Positions 1,769-33,918 of a stretch of 53,945 nt of DNA are shown one piece after another. The notes below the pieces were generated by a model. That model was not told the DNA's origin. It made no database searches and saw only the letters and a list, made by a program, of their open reading frames with translations. The stretch's first letter is position 1. Each line of letters begins with the position of its first letter. Source of the stretch: Cryomorpha ignava (GTDB taxonomy: Bacteria > Bacteroidota > Bacteroidia > Flavobacteriales_D > Cryomorphaceae); the NCBI RefSeq assembly GCF_010686655.1, contig NZ_JAAGVY010000034.1:1-53945 (forward strand). The letters run 5' to 3'. A program made the translations under genes and the position numbers.

Positions 1769-2995
1769 TTAGTTTCTATCTGCGTTCATCTTCTTTAGCT
1801 GAAAAGCAGTCATAAAGATAGATAGCAACATAATAATTGCTCCCGCTGCAAAAGGGGCACCCGGAAAATCAATAATTGCATTATCTCCTGTAAAAAGGTA
1901 AAAAATATAAGTCATAACCGGAGGGCCAATAATGGCGGTAAGGCTCATAATACTGGTAAGCGTGCCCTGTAGTTGCCCTTGCATATTGTTGGGTACAAAG
2001 TTTGAAATGATTCCCTGAAGGGTTGGCCCTGCAACACCACCCAGACAATAAGGCACGATAAAGGCAAACATCATCCAGGGTTCTGTCGCCACAGAAAAAA
2101 GGAATAACCCAAGCGTCCAGAAGCACATGCCCAAAATGATGGTCTTTGTTTCGCCGAGCTTTCTTACCACGATGCGTATGAGTCCACCCTGAACCACGGC
2201 TACCACCACTCCCACTGCCGCGAGTGATAAGCCCACTGTGGTTTCAGTCCAGCTAAATTGATACATCGTGAAAAATGTCCAGGTAGATTGCACCGCGTAG
2301 CCGGCAATGTAGATCAAAAAGAAAGGTATTATAAAACCCATTACCGCCGGAAATTGGCGCAGATTTTTCAAGCCACCCACCGGGTTTGCCTTTCTCCAGT
2401 TAAAGTTGGAAATGCGATTTTCGGGTTTTAGAGATTCCGGAAGGATAATGAGACCGTAGATAAAGTTGACAAGGCTTAACACTGCGGCTACCAAAAATGG
2501 AACCTGCACCCCCCACTTTGCAGCCACACCACCTATTACGGGTCCAATAATAAATCCCAATCCAAAAGCGGCACCTATAAGGCCAAAGTTTTGAGCCTTC
2601 TTTTCAGGGGTACTGATATCAGCAATGTATGCAGTAGCAACAGTAAAGCTCGCTCCCGAAATTCCGGCAAGCACTCTTCCCACAAACAACCACCCCAAAG
2701 TTGGTGCATAAGCGTGAAAAATATAATCGATTCCAAGACCGAAAAGTGCAATTAAAATAATGGGTCGTCTGCCGTATTTATCGCTTAACATTCCTAAAAA
2801 GGGAGCAAACATAAATTGCATGGCCGCATAAGCAAACATAAGCCAGCCGCCTATTCTGGAAGCTTCGCTTAATCCCCCGCCCGATAAATTTTCAATAAGC
2901 GCCGGCAAAATAGGAATGATAATCCCGATGCCGATAACATCTATTAAAACGGTTACAAAAATAAAACCTAGAGAGGCATTGTGATTTTTTGCCAT
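1769..2995 (-). CDS. TCR/Tet-type MFS efflux transporter
   Basis: This is a 12-helix drug:H+ antiporter of the major facilitator superfamily, 408 residues, resembling the TetA family. The first helix carries the FVTVLIDVIGIGIIIPILP pattern seen in TetA-like pumps. Loop 2-3 has the MFS motif A as GMLSDKYGRRPI (about residues 69-80), and helix 5 has the antiporter-type GAAFGLGFIIGPVIGG. It would export small hydrophobic compounds from the cytoplasm. Calling it a tetracycline pump is not justified without a class-level match. A perfect -7 box (TAATTTTG on the minus strand, 3003-3010) lies only 7 nt before the ATG. No TetR-like regulator is adjacent. Confidence 0.88.
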   Translation of the reverse strand: MAKNHNASLGFIFVTVLIDVIGIGIIIPILPALIENLSGGGLSEASRIGGWLMFAYAAMQFMFAPFLGMLSDKYGRRPIILIALFGLGIDYIFHAYAPTLGWLFVGRVLAGISGASFTVATAYIADISTPEKKAQNFGLIGAAFGLGFIIGPVIGGVAAKWGVQVPFLVAAVLSLVNFIYGLIILPESLKPENRISNFNWRKANPVGGLKNLRQFPAVMGFIIPFFLIYIAGYAVQSTWTFFTMYQFSWTETTVGLSLAAVGVVVAVVQGGLIRIVVRKLGETKTIILGMCFWTLGLFLFSVATEPWMMFAFIVPYCLGGVAGPTLQGIISNFVPNNMQGQLQGTLTSIMSLTAIIGPPVMTYIFYLFTGDNAIIDFPGAPFAAGAIIMLLSIFMTAFQLKKMNADRN

Positions 2996-3002
2996 AAGGG
3001 CG

Positions 3003-3010
3003 CAAAATTA
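3003..3010 (-). promoter_or_regulatory. -7 element TAATTTTG of the MFS gene
   Basis: A perfect TAnnTTTG match on the minus strand, 7 nt upstream of the start codon. It implies a leaderless or nearly leaderless mRNA. Confidence 0.55.
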
Positions 3011-3087
3011 CATCAGAGAATTTTTAGAAACTCAAATTCCAAATTGTTTTTTAGTTCCTTTATAACAAAGCGAAATCTGGTAGCTGA

Positions 3088-3942
3088 TTATCCTACATCT
3101 TCAATATATGATTTAAAAGAAGGCAACGCCTCCATGGGGCAAGTTGCATTTTTAATATGGGTTTTAATCAGTCCGTTGCAAAAACTCAAGCCCCCACCTG
3201 GTTCAATTTCATACCACTTGCCCTGATAAAGCCTGTAACCGTGATTGGTTTTTGCGTCGGTATCCGCAAAAAATGAAAAGGCTGTCTCTCCGGCTACACC
3301 AGCAATTATAAGTGTAGGAAATTGGATCACTGAAATTTTAGGCAATTCTCCCTTTTTAGCGAAAGCGGCCCAAAAATCATTTTCAGAATACGGTTGCTCT
3401 GCACCTTGCCAATGACCATACTTTTCTACCACATTTTGAAGAAACTTCAGAATTTCAGGACGGATTGTAAAATCTGAAATCACTTGACTTTTACCATGGG
3501 AAAAAGTAAAGAGGAAAGCATTTTTATCCATTCCAGCTTTAATCTCATTTCGCTTTTCCCATACATCTTGTTCAAACCTATTGGGAATAAGTGCTGGCAG
3601 TGACAAATAGCTATCAGTAGGAAGGCGACTTTCTGATTCTAAGCAATGATGAATCAGCTTAAATGCGGTTTTTTGGTAAGTGAAGTCGCTTGGAGAAGTG
3701 CACCAGAAACCAAGATTGTCGTTTTCAATTTTGAGATTTTGCTCTTCGGCGAATAATCGAAATAAAACGATTGGGATATTCTTAAGTACCAACTTAGAAA
3801 TCAGCACATTCTTATTCTTAAAAGAGTGATAACTGGACGTGAATGGCAATGACAAAATCACTTTTTTTAGCGACTCATGCAGCGCACTTTCTAATTTAAT
3901 TTTATCTTCTGGCGTGTAGAATCTAACTTCTCGGGCGGTCAT
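3088..3942 (-). CDS. Hypothetical protein, 284 aa
   Basis: I do not recognise this protein. It has no signal peptide or membrane segment and looks cytosolic. The N-terminal half is rich in K, L and S. The C-terminal half includes YRLYQGKWYEIEPGGGLSF and ends in a conserved-looking stretch with NGLIKTHIKNATCP. Two cysteines and several tryptophans are present, but no catalytic motif is visible. It has normal codon use for the window and lies between the MFS pump and the GT2 gene on the same strand, with 80 nt to the next gene, so it may be an independent unit. Confidence 0.65.
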   Translation of the reverse strand: MTAREVRFYTPEDKIKLESALHESLKKVILSLPFTSSYHSFKNKNVLISKLVLKNIPIVLFRLFAEEQNLKIENDNLGFWCTSPSDFTYQKTAFKLIHHCLESESRLPTDSYLSLPALIPNRFEQDVWEKRNEIKAGMDKNAFLFTFSHGKSQVISDFTIRPEILKFLQNVVEKYGHWQGAEQPYSENDFWAAFAKKGELPKISVIQFPTLIIAGVAGETAFSFFADTDAKTNHGYRLYQGKWYEIEPGGGLSFCNGLIKTHIKNATCPMEALPSFKSYIEDVG

Positions 3943-4022
3943 AGCAATTGATTGCCAAAAAGGTAGGAGATATTCTCAACTTATCAAAATTTTGATTCAA
4001 AATCTGAAGTAACAGAAGCAAA

Positions 4023-4775
4023 TCAGTTTTCCAATTCCATTTGCCGCAGCTTAGCGTGCTTTAAAAAATCTGAATAAGCCGAGTTTTTGGCAATTACAAA
4101 TCCACGCCAGCCATCGCGAAACGCTGCTTTCAAAAAGTAAATTTTTAAAAATTTAAACCATGGAGCAAAAAGAATCTTAAAAAGACTTGCTTTTTTTCCT
4201 TTCTCAAAATTAATTTCCGCCTTGAGCGTAGAATATTTATTGATGGTAGTTAGATGTTGCTCAATGGTATAAAAAGAATAATGGAACAAATCACCATTGA
4301 GTTTTCCTTTGACGGCATCATTGTCTATCTCCAGATATTCGTGTACTTTTTCGCCAGTCCAACGCGCTTTTGCTTTGTCAAACAGCCGATACTTAGCGTC
4401 GGGATACCAGCCACCGTGCTTTATCCATTTTCCGCAGTAATTGGTTAAGCGGTTTATCTGCAAGGCATCTGTATAACTATTCGTTTTCCAGTTAATTATT
4501 GACTCACGTAAGGATTCAGACAGCGCTTCATCGGCATCGAGCGATAGTACAAACTTATTTTCGGTAAGGCTGTTGCCGAAATTCTTTTGTGCTGCAAAAT
4601 CGGCAAAAGGATGTTGCACAAAATTAACATCAAACTTCCGGCATAGATCCGCAGTTTTATCAGTCGAAAAGCTATCAACTATAATGATTTCATCGGCTAC
4701 ACCACTAAGCGAATTCAGACATCGCTCAATATTCCGCTCTTCATTGTATGTTATAATTACCGCCGATATTTTCAT
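4023..4775 (-). CDS. Glycosyltransferase family 2 (LPS core WaaE/KdtX-like)
   Basis: This 250-residue protein has the GT-A fold pattern. The N-terminus ISAVIITYNEERNIERCL binds the nucleotide sugar, EIIIVDSFSTDKT follows, and the metal-binding SLDADEAL lies near residue 80. The middle part, with YRLFDKAKARWTGEKVHEYLE, is typical of the WaaE/KdtX-like group that adds sugars to the lipopolysaccharide inner core. It would act at the cytoplasmic face of the membrane. It starts one base after the stop of the SDR gene, so the two are translationally linked, and it is the last gene of the S9 peptidase-SDR-GT2 operon. Confidence 0.87.
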   Translation of the reverse strand: MKISAVIITYNEERNIERCLNSLSGVADEIIIVDSFSTDKTADLCRKFDVNFVQHPFADFAAQKNFGNSLTENKFVLSLDADEALSESLRESIINWKTNSYTDALQINRLTNYCGKWIKHGGWYPDAKYRLFDKAKARWTGEKVHEYLEIDNDAVKGKLNGDLFHYSFYTIEQHLTTINKYSTLKAEINFEKGKKASLFKILFAPWFKFLKIYFLKAAFRDGWRGFVIAKNSAYSDFLKHAKLRQMELEN

Positions 4776-4776
4776 C

Positions 4777-5487
4777 TTACCAGGAAATTTCCTTTTTATC
4801 GCGCCAGAATTTTCCCGTCTTATCTTTCTCTACTTCGGTGGCCAGCCATACGGGTGTTTCTGCTCCCTGATCTACTGATCTCGGAGCATTACTCCCACCC
4901 ATGGCCGTGCGTGTCCATCCGGGGCAAACTGCATTTACGGTAATATCTTTTTTAGCAAGTACTGGTGCAAGTTGCCGCGTTACCGCATTCAAAGCAGTTT
5001 TCGACAGCGAATAAATAGGTGCCCAAGAGCCAATTTCATCTTTACAAAAAGAGCCGGCGGTGCTTGAAAGCATCACTACCCGGCAGCCTTTATTCATAAA
5101 AGGAAGCAATGCCTTTGTCATGATAAGCGGGGCGACTGTATTGGTTTCCAGAGTCAGTAATATTTCTGCTCTTGAAAGGTCGAGTATGCTTTTCTGATCG
5201 TCAGGCAACACGGCTGCATTATTTACAAGCGCATCGATTTTATCACCAGAATCTGTAAGTATTTTAAGCAGATTATCGATACTTTCAGGATCTGTAACAT
5301 CCAGTATTGTTGGTACCACATTGTGACCCTCGCCCCGAAGCAGACCCGAGGATTGCATAATCCGGTTCGTGTTTCGGCTACACATATACACCTTGTAGCC
5401 TTTAAAACAGAGTTGCCTCGAAATCTCAAAACCTATTCCTTTGTTGGCGCCGGTTACAATGGCCACTTTTTGATCAGAGTCCGCCAT
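4777..5487 (-). CDS. SDR family oxidoreductase (carbonyl reductase-like)
   Basis: A classical short-chain dehydrogenase/reductase of 236 residues. The Rossmann motif TGANKGIG is at about residues 13-20. NNAAV follows the fourth strand, the catalytic Ser is in VVMLSSTAG, and the YSLSK motif supplies Tyr and Lys. The PGWTRTAMGG segment is characteristic of carbonyl reductase-like members that use NADPH. The substrate is unknown. The start lies 2 nt after the stop of the S9 peptidase and the stop lies one nt before the GT2 start, so the three genes form a tight operon. What links a peptidase, a reductase and a glycosyltransferase is not evident. Confidence 0.88.
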   Translation of the reverse strand: MADSDQKVAIVTGANKGIGFEISRQLCFKGYKVYMCSRNTNRIMQSSGLLRGEGHNVVPTILDVTDPESIDNLLKILTDSGDKIDALVNNAAVLPDDQKSILDLSRAEILLTLETNTVAPLIMTKALLPFMNKGCRVVMLSSTAGSFCKDEIGSWAPIYSLSKTALNAVTRQLAPVLAKKDITVNAVCPGWTRTAMGGSNAPRSVDQGAETPVWLATEVEKDKTGKFWRDKKEISW

Positions 5488-5489
5488 AA

Positions 5490-7385
5490 TTAAAGGGTTT
5501 CTTTAAGCCATCTAAAAAATTCATTTTGCCATACGATTCCGTTTTGAGGACTAAGCACCCAATGATTTTCTTCGGGCAGATACAGCAATCTGCTTTTTAT
5601 GCCAAGCATCTGTGTAGCTGTAAAAGCCTCTAGCCCCTGCCCTATTGGAATTCTAAAATCCTTACCTCCCTGGATAATCAAAATCGGTGTTTTCCAATCT
5701 TGCACATGATTAATGGGGTTGTACTCGTTATAGGTTTTTTGGGCTGCTTCATTTGTTTTATCCCAATACGGGCCACCGATATCCCAATTCATAAAAAATA
5801 GTTCTTCAGTAGTGCCGTACATACTTTTTAAGTTAAACGGACCGTCATGGGCGATAAACGTTTTGAATCGTCCATCGTGAATTCCTTCCAGATAAAATGC
5901 TGAATACCCACCGTAGCTGGCTCCTACGCATCCAAGGCGATCCGTATCAACATAAGGTTCTTTGGCCACAGCATCGATTGCCGACAAGTAATCGCGCATA
6001 TTTTGTCCGCCCCAGTCTTTAGATATTTGCTCATTCCACTCTACGCCATACCCCGGCATTCCACGGCGGTTTGGTGCCACAACAATGTAACCGTTGGCGG
6101 CCATGAGTTGAAAATTCCATCTGAATGAGTAAAACTGGCTCAGGGCAGATTGCGGACCGCCTTGGGTATAAAGCAGCGTGGGGTACTTTTTGGAAGCATC
6201 AAAATCAGGTGGATAAATCATCCAAACCAGCATCTGCTTTCCATCTGTAGTTTCTACCATGCGCGATTGTACATTACTCATTTTTAAGTCATTGTATATC
6301 TCGTCGTTTACATGCGTCAATTGCGCCAAATGTCCTGCGTTTAAATCAATGGCGTACAACTCGCGGGCATGATTCATGTCTGTTTTACCGGCAATAAGTC
6401 TTCCATTTGCAAATCCCACTAGTCCCGAAATATTGTGTACTCCAGTGGTGACTTGCTTTACAGTAGTTTTTGATTCTGCATTGCCGGAAACGTTTACCGA
6501 AAATAACTGCTCTGTTCCTTTAGTCGCCGCGGTAAAATAGATTGTTTTATTATCATCAGACCAAATGAATGAGTTTACCGTGCCATCCCAGTCTTTGGTG
6601 AGGTTTACGGCTTTCCCGTTAAGCATAATTTTTATATCATTTTTATCGCTCTCATATCCATCACGAGCCATTGAAAGCCACGATAGTGTGCCACCCTTTG
6701 AATAAGTGGGATTGGTATCGTAACCCTTATTAGATTCAGTGATGTTTTTGGTGGTTTTGGTAGCAACATTATATTCGTAAAGATCTGTATTTGTGCTGTT
6801 CACATATTCATTACCCTTCATTTTTTTCGAAACATACACCACAGATTTTCCACTGGGGTTCCAAACATAATCTTCGCCTCCGCCGAAAGGTTTTGTAGGC
6901 GTATCATAAGGTTCACCTTTATTTAAGTCTATTGAGTCATTGCCATTTACCGAAACGAGAAACACATGATTGTGCTCTCCTTTTTCCCACGTATCCCAAT
7001 GCCGCACGTTGAGCTCATCAAAAATCATGGCATCGCTTTTATCCATTTTTGGATAGTAATCTTCACCGGTTATTTTACGAACTTTCACCGCATAATCTGT
7101 AAGTTTCCATTTGCCGTCAGGCGAAAGTTTAGGGTTAACCACCAGTGACTTCCCAACTGAATCTTTCCTTACATCTCCTGTTTTTAAGTTTAAAACGAAT
7201 GTTTGAGAATTAAAAGTATTGCCGGGAATATCTGGTGTGGTAACCTTATAAACAAGGCTAGTTCCATCTTGAGAAATACCAACTGCACTCACCCGGCCAA
7301 GGCTCCAAAGCAACTCGGGGGTCATTACCTGCGCAGATGCAAGAATAGGGAGAAAAAGAAATAAGAGAAGCGATTTTAATTTCAT
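5490..7385 (-). CDS. S9 family prolyl oligopeptidase-like serine peptidase, secreted
   Basis: A 631-residue exported peptidase with a signal peptide ending near ASAQ (residue 19). The first two thirds form the beta-propeller that gates the active site; this family often resembles TolB/PD40 repeats. The C-terminal alpha/beta-hydrolase domain carries the catalytic triad: Ser490 in GASYGGYS, Asp576 in GGKDFRIP and His608 in ENHW. It probably cleaves short peptides in the periplasm (dipeptidyl or acylaminoacyl type). It is the first gene of the operon with the SDR and GT2 genes. Confidence 0.92.
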   Translation of the reverse strand: MKLKSLLLFLFLPILASAQVMTPELLWSLGRVSAVGISQDGTSLVYKVTTPDIPGNTFNSQTFVLNLKTGDVRKDSVGKSLVVNPKLSPDGKWKLTDYAVKVRKITGEDYYPKMDKSDAMIFDELNVRHWDTWEKGEHNHVFLVSVNGNDSIDLNKGEPYDTPTKPFGGGEDYVWNPSGKSVVYVSKKMKGNEYVNSTNTDLYEYNVATKTTKNITESNKGYDTNPTYSKGGTLSWLSMARDGYESDKNDIKIMLNGKAVNLTKDWDGTVNSFIWSDDNKTIYFTAATKGTEQLFSVNVSGNAESKTTVKQVTTGVHNISGLVGFANGRLIAGKTDMNHARELYAIDLNAGHLAQLTHVNDEIYNDLKMSNVQSRMVETTDGKQMLVWMIYPPDFDASKKYPTLLYTQGGPQSALSQFYSFRWNFQLMAANGYIVVAPNRRGMPGYGVEWNEQISKDWGGQNMRDYLSAIDAVAKEPYVDTDRLGCVGASYGGYSAFYLEGIHDGRFKTFIAHDGPFNLKSMYGTTEELFFMNWDIGGPYWDKTNEAAQKTYNEYNPINHVQDWKTPILIIQGGKDFRIPIGQGLEAFTATQMLGIKSRLLYLPEENHWVLSPQNGIVWQNEFFRWLKETL

Positions 7386-29232: not shown

Positions 29233-30420
29233 ATGAGCGCAAAAGACGATTTCTTAAAATATCAAGCCCAAACCACCCCCTTTCCCGTATCGATTGAAGT
29301 ATCGCACGCTGAAGGAAGTTTTATTTATGATGTGGATGGAAAAGCTTACGCCGATATGGTTTCGGGACTGGCTGTAACAAATGTTGGGCACCGCCACCCT
29401 AAAGTGATCGCAGCCATTGAAGCCCAGCTCAAAAAGTATTTGCACGTTATGCCTTACGGCGAATTTATTCAGTCGCCACAAGTAAATCTGGCCAGAAAAC
29501 TAAATGCTATTCTACCAAGCGGTTTAGATGTAAGCTATTTTGTAAATAGCGGAACAGAGGCCAATGAAGCCGCCTTAAAACTCGCCAAGCGATACACCGG
29601 CCGTCGGAAAATTGTATCCTGTCTCAAATCATATCACGGCAGCACACATGGTTCGCTAAGTGTTTCCGGAAATGAAAAGAAGAAATACGCTTTTCGTCCC
29701 TTGCTCCCCGAAGTCTATTTTATGCGCTTTAACGAAATGGCCGATCTGGAAATAATCGATTCTGATACCGCCTGTGTAATTGTTGAAACCATTCAGGGCG
29801 ATGCCGGCGTGCGCATTCCGACTCATTCATACATGCAGGCACTTCGCAAGCGATGCGATGATACCGGTGCGCTTCTCATTCTCGATGAAATTCAGGCGGG
29901 TTTTGGCCGCACCGGAAAACTTTTTGCTTTTGAGCATTTTGGCATTGTTCCAGATATCTTGACCATCGCCAAAAGCATTGCCGGCGGTATGGCAATGGGC
30001 GCTTTTGTGAGTAGCAAAGAAATTATGAAGTCGCTAATTTCTGATCCAATATTGGGACATATTACCACATTTGGTGGTCATCCGGTCTGTTGCGCGGCGG
30101 CAATTGGCAATTTAGAAGCCATAGAAGGTGAGAATATGGTAGAAACCTGCGAAGAAAAAGGTGCTCTTTTGGAATCTTGCCTCTCCCACCCTGCCATTAT
30201 TGAAATCAGACGAATCGGGTTGATGTTTGCTGTTGAATTTTCTTCAGCCGATCTCGTCTATAAAATTGTAGATCGCTGTCTTGAAAAAGGAATTATTGCC
30301 TTTTACTTTCTCTCCTGCCCCGAGAGTTTTCGGCTTGCTCCGCCGCTAAATATGAGTGATGAAGATTTGGTGAAAGCCGGGAAAACAATTAATGAAGTTA
30401 TTGGAGAGATTTGTGGGTGA
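29233..30420 (+). CDS. Class III pyridoxal phosphate aminotransferase
   Basis: A 395-residue fold type I enzyme. FVNSGTEANEAALKLAKRYTGRRK binds the cofactor phosphate, SYHGSTHGSLS follows, LLILDEIQAGFGRTGKLFAFEHF carries the cofactor-binding Asp, and the Schiff-base Lys (about residue 247) is in LTIAKSIAGGMAMGAF. It belongs to the acetylornithine/4-aminobutyrate aminotransferase group and catalyses amino transfer to a keto acid; the substrate is uncertain and it stands alone. It is not part of an arginine cluster. Confidence 0.92.
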   Translation: MSAKDDFLKYQAQTTPFPVSIEVSHAEGSFIYDVDGKAYADMVSGLAVTNVGHRHPKVIAAIEAQLKKYLHVMPYGEFIQSPQVNLARKLNAILPSGLDVSYFVNSGTEANEAALKLAKRYTGRRKIVSCLKSYHGSTHGSLSVSGNEKKKYAFRPLLPEVYFMRFNEMADLEIIDSDTACVIVETIQGDAGVRIPTHSYMQALRKRCDDTGALLILDEIQAGFGRTGKLFAFEHFGIVPDILTIAKSIAGGMAMGAFVSSKEIMKSLISDPILGHITTFGGHPVCCAAAIGNLEAIEGENMVETCEEKGALLESCLSHPAIIEIRRIGLMFAVEFSSADLVYKIVDRCLEKGIIAFYFLSCPESFRLAPPLNMSDEDLVKAGKTINEVIGEICG

Positions 30421-30714
30421 ATAAGGGGTAGTTGGTGATTGGTTATTAGTGATTTGTTTTTAGTGATTGGTTTTTAGTGATTTGTTTTTAGTGATTGGTT
30501 TTTGGTTTCATTATTTAATCGGTGAATTTTTGCGAACACCAAGGTTAATAGGCCCGAAAGGTGGGGTCTGAATAGAACTTCAGTCATATAATTCAATATC
30601 AATGAGTTTCTGTCCGCCCATCTAAAATTCTACGGGAAATATGTTTGCTTGAAACATTAATCTCCACTTTTTGAAAAACCCTAAATGTCCATTATCCTCC
30701 GAATGGTTCAACAT
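30421..30714. other. Intergenic region with period-15 repeat
   Basis: No coding signal. The first 80 bases are low-complexity repeats; the rest shows nothing recognisable. Confidence 0.55.
30433..30505. repeat. Degenerate tandem repeat of about 15 bp
   Basis: The block GTGATTGGTTTTTA or GTGATTTGTTTTTA recurs about five times in direct orientation. A shorter relative of the same kind (TTTTTAGTTTTTAG) is at 31970-31995. It is a simple-sequence expansion. Confidence 0.75.
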
Positions 30715-31080
30715 TCAATAATCACCCATACTTAGCAAAACAAGTGTACAAGCTTCAGTAGCCTCAATTCCCTTTTCTTCCAGTTCTTTTTCAAATTCAC
30801 TCTCGGTACCGGGGTTAAAAATCACTCTTTTCGGATTTAAGGAAAAAATATAATCTTTCCAGTAGTCCTGATGCTTTGGGCCAACGTAGAGGGTTACGGT
30901 ATCCACGTTCTCAATTTTAGGAAAATCTTTAAGAATCTCAACGTCATCGATCATTCCTGTGCGCAATCCAACAGGTACAACTTCGTGTCCTGCTCGCTTA
31001 AGACGGTTGGTAGCCACGTAGGCATATCTTGATGGGTTGGTACTGGCTCCTATGACTACAGTTTTCTTTGATTTGCTCAT
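30715..31080 (-). CDS. CoA-binding domain protein (YccU-like)
   Basis: A 121-residue single Rossmann-like domain: KTVVIGASTNPSRYAYVATNRLKRAGHEVVPVG, then VDTVTLYVGPKHQ and VIFNPGTES, as in the CoA-binding proteins related to the alpha subunit of succinyl-CoA synthetase. The exact role is unknown. The ORF continues to a GTG three codons upstream, but ATG 31080 fits, being about 10 nt from the expected start of transcription from the -7 box at 31096-31103. Confidence 0.88.
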   Translation of the reverse strand: MSKSKKTVVIGASTNPSRYAYVATNRLKRAGHEVVPVGLRTGMIDDVEILKDFPKIENVDTVTLYVGPKHQDYWKDYIFSLNPKRVIFNPGTESEFEKELEEKGIEATEACTLVLLSMGDY

Positions 31081-31095
31081 AACTTTCACTTTTTA

Positions 31096-31161: not shown

Positions 31162-31401
31162 TCATAGCTCTGTGTCATAAGAAAATGTCTCGGGAACAAT
31201 AAATTGTCCTTCCGGATTGCGAATCATGAGGTAAAAGTCTTTGCACAAAAAATTTATCCTGTGCTCAAAGCGTCGCTGGGAAAAATGGCAATCCCAGGCA
31301 TAAAGCGCCAGCTTTTTTATCGCTCTCCACGAGTGTGTATTTAATCCGTTTGGACGAGGAAAAGAATTGATGTATCGGCTTGCGTCTGCTAAATTATTCA
31401 T
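31162..31401 (-). CDS. Hypothetical protein, 79 aa, under palindrome box 1
   Basis: This small protein is not recognised. It starts MNNLADASRYINSFPRPNGL and ends VPETFSYDTEL. It is mixed alpha/beta by eye, with aromatic residues (WDCHFSQRRFEHRI, FYLMIRNPEGQF) and no signal peptide. It is preceded at 49 nt by the palindrome AACGTAATGTATTTACGTT (31451-31469), which is also found before the next gene upstream. A terminator follows. The shared box suggests the two genes respond to the same regulator. Confidence 0.5.
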   Translation of the reverse strand: MNNLADASRYINSFPRPNGLNTHSWRAIKKLALYAWDCHFSQRRFEHRINFLCKDFYLMIRNPEGQFIVPETFSYDTEL

Positions 31402-31450
31402 GGCTTTTTTATTTTTATGTGTTATTTATTCTGCTAAAGTCGAGGTGCAG

Positions 31451-31469
31451 AACGTAATGTATTTACGTT
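31451..31469. promoter_or_regulatory. Palindrome box 1, AACGTAATGTATTTACGTT
   Basis: The arms AACGTAA and TTACGTT are perfect inverse complements separated by five bases. The identity with box 2 (31936-31954) extends outward to GAGGTG on the left and GTG on the right. It lies 49 nt upstream of the 79-aa gene. Probable operator for an unknown dimeric regulator. Confidence 0.6.
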
Positions 31470-31487
31470 GTGAAATAATTCTTCAAA

Positions 31488-31901
31488 TTATTCCATTTCA
31501 ATGAGTTGAAAATAGTAGAGTGCTTCACCTTCGGAACTCTCATCAGAATTGAAACGATGCACGCGAGTGGTTAAATCAACATTTGCAATCTTCAAATCGC
31601 TTCCCAATGTTTTGCGCAGGCATATTTCGCCTGAATGTTCATTGGGAATCAGAAACTCGGCGAGTTTTGCAGCCACATCAAGCCTGTTCGAATTATTGAG
31701 CGAACCCATTAAGAGTTTGTTGACCTGCAAAAAGCTAAGCGCAAGCACATAACTCGCCTTTTTAGATCCAAATATGCCGCTACATACCATAAACAGAGGT
31801 GGATAGCCACGCACATTTGGATTGATAATAATTTTTGATACCGAAAGTTTGCTGAAATAATACTCTTTCGCTTCGTAGAAATTTTGACCTATGTCTCTCA
31901 T
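31488..31901 (-). CDS. Hypothetical protein, 137 aa, under palindrome box 2
   Basis: I do not recognise this protein. It starts MRDIGQNFYEAKEYYFSKLS, has a hydrophobic middle (PPLFMVCSGIFGSKKASYVLALSFLQ) that is too short and polar to be a clear membrane helix, and ends with EALYYFQLIEME. It is preceded at 34 nt by the palindrome box 2. It is flanked on both sides by the same 27-30 bp block, so it could also be seen as a unit bounded by direct repeats. No similarity to the neighbouring 79-aa protein is evident. Confidence 0.55.
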   Translation of the reverse strand: MRDIGQNFYEAKEYYFSKLSVSKIIINPNVRGYPPLFMVCSGIFGSKKASYVLALSFLQVNKLLMGSLNNSNRLDVAAKLAEFLIPNEHSGEICLRKTLGSDLKIANVDLTTRVHRFNSDESSEGEALYYFQLIEME

Positions 31902-31935
31902 AATGTTTTAATTTTTGAGCAAGATCAGAGGTGGG

Positions 31936-31954
31936 AACGTAATGTATTTACGTT
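31936..31954. promoter_or_regulatory. Palindrome box 2, AACGTAATGTATTTACGTT
   Basis: Identical to box 1 over the 19-bp palindrome and nearly so for about 6 bp on the left and 3 bp on the right. It lies 34 nt upstream of the 137-aa gene. Candidate operator. Confidence 0.6.
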
Positions 31955-32500: not shown

Positions 32501-32782
32501 TTAATTTCCCACATCCCAATAATAATACTTTACTCCATCATTGATGAAAGGTTCGTCACGCATCAGGTTTTGGGATCTATCTACTTTCACATATATCGCA
32601 GAGTCTCCATGCTGATCTTGCCGCAGCAGCTTTTTATAAATTCTCTTTTTCTTGAGTAAAAGCGTTACGTGATCGTTTAACTCCTCTGTTGTAAGCGGAT
32701 CCTTATCAACTGTCTGCCCATTTGCAATTATCTGTAAAGCAATAAACGGTATGATTATAGAAAGTTTTAAGAGCCGCATCAT
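32501..32782 (-). CDS. Small secreted hypothetical protein, 93 aa
   Basis: The N-terminus LLKLSIIIPFIALQIIANGQ is a signal peptide. The mature 70 residues are charged (TTEELNDHVTLLLKKKRIYKKLLRQDQHGDSAIYVKVDRSQNL) and end YYYWDVGN. No family is recognised. A -7 box on the minus strand lies 40-47 nt upstream, so transcription is plausible. It stands alone. Confidence 0.6.
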   Translation of the reverse strand: MMRLLKLSIIIPFIALQIIANGQTVDKDPLTTEELNDHVTLLLKKKRIYKKLLRQDQHGDSAIYVKVDRSQNLMRDEPFINDGVKYYYWDVGN

Positions 32783-32898: not shown

Positions 32899-33918
32899 TC
32901 AATAAAGCTTCAAAGTATTTTTCAAACTTTGTCCAATCTGCTTTCGCAAAGATTCGGGAGCTTTTACTTCCACATCTGTGCCATAACTCAAAATAGTCAT
33001 TATTAGTTCTTTGGTAACACAGAGGAATAGTTCCACTTCAAGTGCGACTTCATCGTTGCGAATAATCTTTTGGGATTGATGGAGCGGCTGCGATTCGATA
33101 TATTTCCCCGAAAGGGGAGAAAAACGCAAATGAATTCGTTGCGGATCATCATTTACAGCTGTAATTCCAATACTGTGTTCAAAATAAAGAGCAGGATTGA
33201 AACCAGCCTGACGTGAGAAATCAAAATCGGTTAGCTCAATAGATCCCGCAACCCTATCTAATCCAAAAACAACAACGGAATCTTTATCGGGGTTAAAACC
33301 AATTACGTACCAACGGTTTCGGTATTCTTTGAGGAGATACGGATGTAACTGATATTGCTGCTTTTTGCCTCCCGAAAATTTTTGGTACTCAAATTTAATA
33401 ACCTTATTGCTCTTTATCGCCTTCAAGATTACTGGAAGGTAAGCCCCACCTTTGTAAGATTGAGCGGTTTCAAACTGAATGTGAGAAGTAACCTCGCTTT
33501 CGTTGTTTTTTGGATTCAGATTAAATCTATCTAATATCTTGTCGATGGCAGCCTCTGAAGATTTAAACATATCGAGTCCGCGAAACTGCGACAGGGTATT
33601 GGCTGCAAAAGATATCGCTTCCAGATCGTCATCGTTGAGGGGCATTTCCTGAATTGAATAATCGGGATCAGAATAATAATAGCCCTTATTTGCCTTGTGA
33701 AATACGATGGGCGCATAATATCCCAGATTAGATTCATTGCGCATTGCAAAAAGATCTTTTTCGATGGTGCTTAGCGAAATTTTACCTTCATCGCTTCCAT
33801 AAAGCTCGTCTTCGCAAGCCTGTCGTAAATCCTCCTTATTGGGATAGGGATTGTATTTAGATCCTATTTTACGATCAATAATTCTGTAGCGGAGTAAGGC
33901 GTACTTATTTACAGGCAT
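32899..33918 (-). CDS. WYL-domain transcriptional regulator
   Basis: A 339-residue regulator. The N-terminus (about 1-90) is helical with ALLRYRIIDRKIGSKYNPYPNKEDL and SLSTIEKDLFAMRNE, likely a winged-helix DNA-binding part. The middle and C-terminus contain the WYL domain: IKSNKVIKFEYQKFSG, then HPYLLKEYRNRWYVIGFNPDK, the conserved ligand-binding strand pair. Such proteins often bind nucleic acid or nucleotides and control DNA damage or defence genes. ATG 33918 is chosen because the longer start (TTG) lies in the -7 box. No defence gene is adjacent. Confidence 0.85.
   Translation of the reverse strand: MPVNKYALLRYRIIDRKIGSKYNPYPNKEDLRQACEDELYGSDEGKISLSTIEKDLFAMRNESNLGYYAPIVFHKANKGYYYSDPDYSIQEMPLNDDDLEAISFAANTLSQFRGLDMFKSSEAAIDKILDRFNLNPKNNESEVTSHIQFETAQSYKGGAYLPVILKAIKSNKVIKFEYQKFSGGKKQQYQLHPYLLKEYRNRWYVIGFNPDKDSVVVFGLDRVAGSIELTDFDFSRQAGFNPALYFEHSIGITAVNDDPQRIHLRFSPLSGKYIESQPLHQSQKIIRNDEVALEVELFLCVTKELIMTILSYGTDVEVKAPESLRKQIGQSLKNTLKLY

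Follow-up and report, generated by a model that had tools for sequence, protein, structure and literature searches.

A predicted palindromic promoter element at recA, CRISPR-Cas and small-protein genes of Bacteroidia, with a WYL-domain protein as its candidate activator

Two identical 19-bp palindromes in a 53,945-nt stretch of the Cryomorpha ignava genome (hereafter the window) represent a motif that stands at a fixed spacing from a -7 box before recA, CRISPR-Cas effector genes and two families of small proteins, and that is linked to, and co-occurs with, a gene for a WYL-domain regulator. We consider it probable that a LexA-independent regulon, responsive to ssDNA or DNA damage and driven by a WYL activator, lies behind these palindromes. 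Each palindrome would be the upstream element of an activator-dependent promoter. In the manner of DriD, a homodimer of the WYL regulator (32899-33918) would occupy CGTAAATNNNTTACG at the position expected of the -33 element and bring the housekeeping RNA polymerase to a weak -7 box (TAnnTTTG) that follows after 25-27 bp. On the model of DriD and PafBC, ssDNA from damaged or invading DNA may switch the WYL domain on. The regulon would then raise RecA (from recA or bcp-recA), probably RarA, and the small proteins A and B, and, where these are present, also CRISPR-Cas effectors, restriction/repair genes, IS1595-like transposases and some phage recombination genes. From sequence we infer which protein is the regulator and that it binds, that it activates rather than represses, that it responds to ssDNA or damage, and what A and B may do.

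The palindrome and its promoter geometry

The initial annotation of this DNA had placed AACGTAATGTATTTACGTT at 31451-31469 and 31936-31954, with gaps of 49 and 34 nt to the start codons of a 79-aa gene (B, 31162-31401, minus strand) and a 137-aa gene (A, 31488-31901, minus strand), and both copies and both gaps are exactly as described. Its further statement that nothing similar occurs elsewhere in the window also holds, since only these two copies are found even at up to three mismatches, against 0.04 expected from dinucleotide shuffles of the 54 kb, and the exact 19-mer occurs just twice in the whole genome (5.0 Mb, 149 contigs), both times here. The proposed extension of the identity to about 30 bp stands in part: the GTG side is common to both copies, but the match is not an ungapped 30 bp, owing to a 1-nt offset (on the plus strand, GAGGTG continues with CAG in one copy but with GG in the other). 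Looser searches of the same genome returned AACGTAAATAGGTTACGTT two more times, plus weaker relatives. By eye, TTTTTAGTGATTGG-like repeats are also visible at 30413-30512 of the window, around and after the end of an aminotransferase-like ORF.

Read on the gene strand, the window palindrome is CGTAAATACATTACG, one form of CGTAAATNNNTTACG. Palindrome 1 (31451-31469, gene strand AACGTAAATACATTACGTT) and palindrome 2 (31936-31954), both read on the minus strand, are the predicted upstream promoter elements of B and A, respectively, and each is conserved before homologues of its gene. With coordinates set by hand, the -7-like box of B, GACTTTAG, lies on the minus strand at 31434-31441, at +26 from the palindrome, and that of A, TGATCTTG, on the same strand at 31920-31927, at +25. 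Each agrees with TAnnTTTG at 4 of 6 positions, and we counted against our preferred explanation both these weak matches and the ATACA spacer variant that the two window sites share.

TAnnTTTG is the -7 element of Bacteroidota, and the palindrome would overlie the place where the -33 element usually stands. The geometry was examined at 111 sites with distinct context, a part of all sites found, with one-base spacer variants admitted. Aligned on the palindrome alone, these sites give ACGTAAATAGATTACGTTCTGC followed by TAnnTTTG at +26 to +33. When reduced to the 107 with distinct downstream sequences, which include homologous promoters of related genomes and are thus not independent, 103 match at least 4 of the 6 positions of TAnnTTTG at +25 to +27 (81 at +26 and 26 at +27), against a mean of 17.6 and a maximum of 26 of 107 in shuffled controls, and 22 for the best offset on the other side of the palindrome. 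These 103 sites would thus lie over the -35/-33 position at a fixed distance from the -10/-7 box, as do those of DriD and PafBC, and on this sequence evidence we read the palindrome as an upstream promoter element with the architecture used by these WYL activators. Such constant spacing is more readily expected of an activator than of a repressor. On the divergent rarA side (L103, L112, L122, L129, and L131), the -7 box lies one helical turn beyond the usual +26, with a perfect TAnnTTTG at +36 or +37 in all five loci of family f1 examined.

The association also holds in relatives. The annotation had named homologues without the palindrome as evidence against its proposal; in fact, GTAAATNNNTTAC is present within 110 nt upstream of 26 of 30 B homologues (the best-scoring 30 of 98 B loci) and of 6 of 8 A-family genes, own copies included, and mononucleotide-shuffled B upstream regions yield a mean of 0.02 of 30 and a maximum of 2 in 1000 shuffles. 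It is missed at L047, L048, L057, and L061 among the B loci, where L048 has a degenerate copy by eye, and at L030 and L037 among the A loci. In the 249 genomes of the order, exact CGTAAATAGRTTACG occurs in 126 copies in 56 genomes, compared with 4 copies of a reversed control pattern. Twenty-six of the 126 copies are found in two genomes of one genus (G172 and G233), often near contig ends, as would be expected of a multicopy element.

Genes behind the motif

The genes nearest to the 111 sites comprise BCP peroxiredoxin (24), RecA (19), a family of about 105 aa (15 entries), A and B (9 entries each), an IS1595-like transposase (9), RarA (5, divergent), Cas9 (3), HIRAN (3), and DnaE-like proteins (2), with many other sites next to single, unclustered genes; the names RecA, BCP, RarA, DnaE, and IS1595 were given by eye from sequence, without a library scan. 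BCP stands before recA in one group and after the site in another. Library scans, one set of which took in L100 and L111 and left out L162 and L175, confirm RmuC (L158), HIRAN (L114), DUF4007 (L107), CoiA-like proteins (L087 and L111), Cas12a (L078), Cas9 (L145 and L179), Cas8b/TM1802 (L191 and L121), Cas7 (L191), a D12 methyltransferase (L099), and a Pycsar-type membrane effector (L143). The predicted regulon thus contains recombination and repair genes, namely recA, rarA, RmuC, and a DnaE-like gene, as a regulon of the DriD/PafBC type should.

In several families, the promoter of recA carries the motif. In C. ignava itself there are six sites at no more than one mismatch, all with 4 or 5 of 6 positions of the -7 box at +25 or +26; such sites precede A, B, an IS1595-like gene, and a gene for a 115-aa protein of unknown function, and one precedes bcp, with recA behind bcp, and is divergent from rarA. 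In family f17, from another order, the site lies before bcp-recA in four loci and between bcp and recA in one, and B-like genes are found in two loci (L313 and L314). IS1595-like transposase genes with the promoter were observed at L105, L113, L118, L124, L134, L185, L330, and others; the element may be induced together with the regulon, and L185, one of the repeated G233 sites, may explain the copies in that genome. At L116 and L188, the motif lies 189-247 nt before genes for large secreted, surface-type proteins with no known link to DNA damage.

A and B had been described as orphans, and this does not hold. At E<=0.01, and with the own genome included, B has matches in 98 of the 249 genomes of the order and A in 16 of 249, the latter divided into eight at 1.2e-6 or better (own included) and eight weak ones (E 0.001-0.01). 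Elsewhere in the family, six genomes encode strong homologues of A (35-39% identity), and G001 has a weaker match that spans the full length. The annotation was right that the two proteins are unrelated (hhalign probability 0.1%) and unrecognised, as Pfam, NCBIfam, PHROGs, and PADLOC give no match to either. A lies directly upstream of B in five genomes (G003, G015, G030, G023, and G001), on the opposite strand in G041, and on a different contig in G036. A gene for a CoA_binding_2 protein, downstream of B in the window (30715-31089, minus strand) and lacking a palindrome of its own, also follows B in several relatives.

B, which is conserved in the order, is small and predicted to consist of helices only. 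Its model, from three sequences, is fairly confidently helical (pLDDT 82.5); Foldseek found no match to it below E 3.8, and the B profile gave weak, unrelated matches only among PDB sequences (best E 0.0066). No B homologues were confirmed in viral contigs, and none were found in the PLSDB plasmids. The model of A, from two sequences, is poor (pLDDT 63.5; best Foldseek E 0.28), and VIA gave a best Z of 6.0, below the tool's caution level, with mostly SSB/RPA-like OB folds among the 50 rows listed. We take this as a hint that A could possibly be an OB-fold ssDNA binder, the OB-like fold being tentative. Profile comparison places A beside a small group (L037, L162, L164, and L341; hhalign probability 94%, E 1e-7), which in turn matches the 105-aa family, whose genes stand behind the same promoter elsewhere (97.9%, E 4e-13), and by this intermediate group A appears related to that family, although the direct comparison reaches only 66%.

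Several CRISPR-Cas genes follow the motif. In the own genome (L191, G000:C5), the sixth of the sites, at 2501-2515 and with a 5-of-6 -7 box, is followed by ORFs at 2818-3171, 3275-5248, and 5273-6001, which appear to be a broken copy of the 5' end of cas8b, about 300 nt from the site, and then cas8b and cas7 of type I-B. A cas8b gene also lies behind a motif site in G046 (L121). Class 2 effector ORFs begin 29 to 102 nt after sites in loci from four genomes (Cas9 at L135, L145, and L179; Cas12a at L078), with starts as called mechanically.

The phage evidence is modest. Exact copies of the 15-mer were found in 42 viral stretches, which by a rough guess are probably largely due to chance, and eleven stretches pass a filter for the -7 box and flanks. 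Five of the eleven share one repeated sequence, in which the -7-like box is separated from an ATG by only 4 nt, so that the transcript would have to be leaderless. In viral contigs L235, L238, L247, L248, L250, L273, L274, and L275, phage ORFs begin 38 or 49 nt after the first base of the motif, and a -7-like box lies in between. In keeping with a theme of ssDNA and recombination, the genes at such phage promoters include one for a RecE-like exonuclease (YqaJ), which starts only 4 nt from the box and may be leaderless, and one for an Erf ssDNA-annealing protein.

A candidate WYL regulator and its closest known systems

The annotation had proposed a small regulon under a dimeric regulator that is not encoded nearby. 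The regulon is supported by our data and its regulator is probably dimeric, but it is far larger than two genes, and its best candidate regulator is encoded in the window itself: a WYL/WCX-domain protein (32899-33918, minus strand; 339 aa from MPVNKY), upstream of A on the same strand with a single 93-aa ORF between them (32501-32782, minus strand), which has no palindrome of this kind upstream. Pfam identifies the WYL (1.4e-15) and WCX (5.9e-10) domains characteristic of DriD- and PafBC-type regulators, and no HTH or other N-terminal DNA-binding domain in the protein. The N-terminus is nevertheless strongly conserved, with S47, I49, K51, and D52 invariant in 26 sequences; the long PDB profile matches start at profile positions 77-161 and leave it uncovered. 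A profile of the 26 orthologues matches PafBC (6sj9) at 1.4e-20 and DriD (8tp8) at 1.8e-15, but CapW (9c5g) only at 7e-4 and 7qfz, which we take to be BrxR, at 3e-5. A single gene together with a palindromic site suggests a homodimer.

The WYL gene is widespread, with matches at E<=1e-20 in 221 of the 249 genomes of the order, and by hand count 19 of the 30 B loci have it upstream of B in the same orientation, inside the 1.5-kb flank. In other orders, it precedes the site by about 40-90 nt (L320 and L321) or stands on the same strand at a distance of 2.5-5 kb upstream (L313, L314, L316, L317, and L318), and in L319 the order is reversed, with the site upstream of the WYL gene. Two further loci (L312 and L315) have no TTACG site by the strict pattern, as their sites end in TTACA. 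The WYL gene is about 23 kb (G003) or 47 kb (G023) from A-B on the same contig, and it is on another contig in G015, G036, and G041. These separations and the reversed order in L319 weigh against our explanation, as do the rarA spacing and the surface-type neighbors at L116 and L188.

Co-occurrence points the same way, with the reservation that these statistics ignore phylogeny and count related genomes that are not independent. Across 295 genomes of the class, in which nine G301 rows were reduced to four distinct ones, sites defined as GTAAATNNNTTACG plus TTTG at the right distance are present in 25 of the 55 that have a close WYL protein (E<=1e-55), as against 15 of the 240 that have none (p=1.7e-11); an internal control, of matches without the following G, gives 16 of 55 versus 52 of 240 (p=0.29), and the stricter TTACGNTNT form 21 of 55 versus 4 of 240. 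Within the order, 55 of 221 genomes with the WYL gene carry the motif, versus 1 of 28 without it (p=0.008).

A different activator could bind the same promoter element, the WYL gene being merely a conserved neighbor. Such a reading would account for motif-positive genomes without a close WYL match: G038, which has convincing recA and 105-aa sites and a best WYL match of 9.1e-49; G370 and G505 (70% complete), also with convincing sites; and G030 (92% complete), with three exact sites and no WYL match at E<=1e-20. It is also compatible with the fact that binding of the palindrome by the WYL protein is proposed from sequence, and that the WYL gene of the window has no such site of its own. Against it are the linkage in several families and the class-wide co-occurrence, and the nearest solved relatives of the WYL protein are activators, of which DriD has this very promoter architecture. 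On balance we regard a different activator as unlikely, and the WYL protein as the better candidate.

DriD of Caulobacter crescentus (targets didA, bapE, recJ, and dnaG) provides the closest parallel. It is described as binding a pseudo-palindrome that overlaps the -35 element at a constant distance from the -10 element, and as a protein stimulated by ssDNA that anchors RNA polymerase on non-optimal promoters (PMC12340889). Like the system proposed here, it combines a WYL regulator, a site over the -35 element at fixed spacing, and targets that include DNA-repair genes and a small protein, all reported as SOS-independent (PMC12340889, PMC4211646). It differs in that the palindrome here is CGTAAATNNNTTACG and is paired with the Bacteroidota -7 box, and in that the downstream genes here include recA, rarA, CRISPR-Cas, IS1595-like, and phage recombination genes; activation by ssDNA and inhibition of division are attributed to DriD, and for the present system activation by ssDNA is proposed by analogy. 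The mycobacterial PafBC, the closest solved profile match, is likewise a WYL and WCX activator of a DNA-damage regulon, reported to be activated by ssDNA and to act as a heterodimer by sigma adaptation (PMC11804915), unlike the one gene and palindromic site seen here. PafBC-like WYL architectures are stated to be common in Bacteroidetes, with no regulon given for them in the part of that source considered here (PMC6789036). BrxR and CapW are also WYL proteins tied to defence genes, but their profile match is far weaker than those of PafBC and DriD. They are known as local regulators of one defence operon, not of a dispersed regulon with recA.

Bacteroidota were long believed to lack an SOS response, and an S24 regulator was described in 2021. 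That regulator seems not to account for the promoters studied here. If our explanation is true, one of the largest bacterial phyla has a second damage response with recA at its core, the conserved families A and B are damage effectors, and some CRISPR-Cas loci and phage recombination genes are inducible by DNA damage. In its broadest form, recA across much of the class Bacteroidia would be under an ssDNA-sensing WYL activator, instead of or besides LexA-type repression, and transposons, phage recombination operons, and three types of CRISPR-Cas effector would have recruited the same promoter, the whole forming a general "exposed ssDNA" alarm common to repair, immunity, and mobile elements, of which A and B would be the dedicated effectors; the chances for and against this wider picture seem to us evenly balanced. 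Among the papers listed in searches of largely open-access literature, judged by titles and abstract openings, we found no description of the regulon, and no occurrence of the motif string in the literature searched, and the circuit, seemingly undescribed, is likely to be novel.

Alternative origins of the palindrome

A different reading holds that the palindrome is the SOS box of the non-canonical Bacteroidota LexA, an S24/CI-like repressor whose self-cleavage frees the operator. This system, from the same phylum, resembles ours in that it is a DNA-repair regulon with recA among its genes, and differs in its S24 repressor and in its boxes, CTAA-N5-TTAG or GGA-N5-TCC (PMC8565304, the main text of which mentions neither WYL nor CRISPR). 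Our motif, GTAA-N5-TTAC with conserved CG flanks, fits neither box, but is one base per arm from the former, and divergent boxes such as TTAC-AAATT-GTAA have been published (PMC8565304). An S24 regulator is present in the own genome (G000:C47), and the box may have drifted, given that exact CTAA-N5-TTAG is found upstream in only 1 of 9 S24 loci. However, published S24 regulators bind their own promoters, and GTAAATNNNTTAC is absent from all nine S24 loci (about 3 kb each, from 8 genomes); the own-genome S24 gene has CTAATATTATTAG upstream instead, and the other eight have no exact CTAA-N5-TTAG. These loci come from a PF00717 search of 10 genomes, and one of the nine (L199) is a large helicase-like protein rather than LexA-like. 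Furthermore, G007 and the single-contig genome G108 carry the motif and have no PF00717 match at E<=0.001, and a repressor operator need not hold one distance to the -7 box, as the motif does. We therefore judge an S24 operator slightly less probable even than a different activator, and retain the WYL activator as the preferred explanation. As a separate observation, S24/CI-like candidates for the non-canonical LexA are seen at L197 (G000:C47), with CTAATATTATTAG in its own promoter, and at L196 (G046:C76), and in G046 a DinB-like polymerase gene (by eye) directly follows the S24 gene.

That the palindromes are repeat elements, either of the REP/RAYT type, as 11 Y1_Tnp (RAYT-like) matches in the genome (10 above the cut-off) and direct-repeat arrays near some of these loci might suggest, or direct repeats at the ends of a mobile cassette that contains the 137-aa gene, as the annotation had offered in the alternative, is very improbable, since the genome has just two exact copies of the 19-mer rather than many dispersed ones that also flank RAYT genes, the motif is found in none of the 11 Y1_Tnp loci and stands at recA promoters in several families, and the A and B sites differ from each other in relatives while each stays in its promoter position. 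Of the eleven Y1_Tnp loci (L016-L026, all from the own genome), five were examined for repeats of their own, and direct-repeat arrays are present at L016, L017, and L020, with short repeats at L018 and L019.
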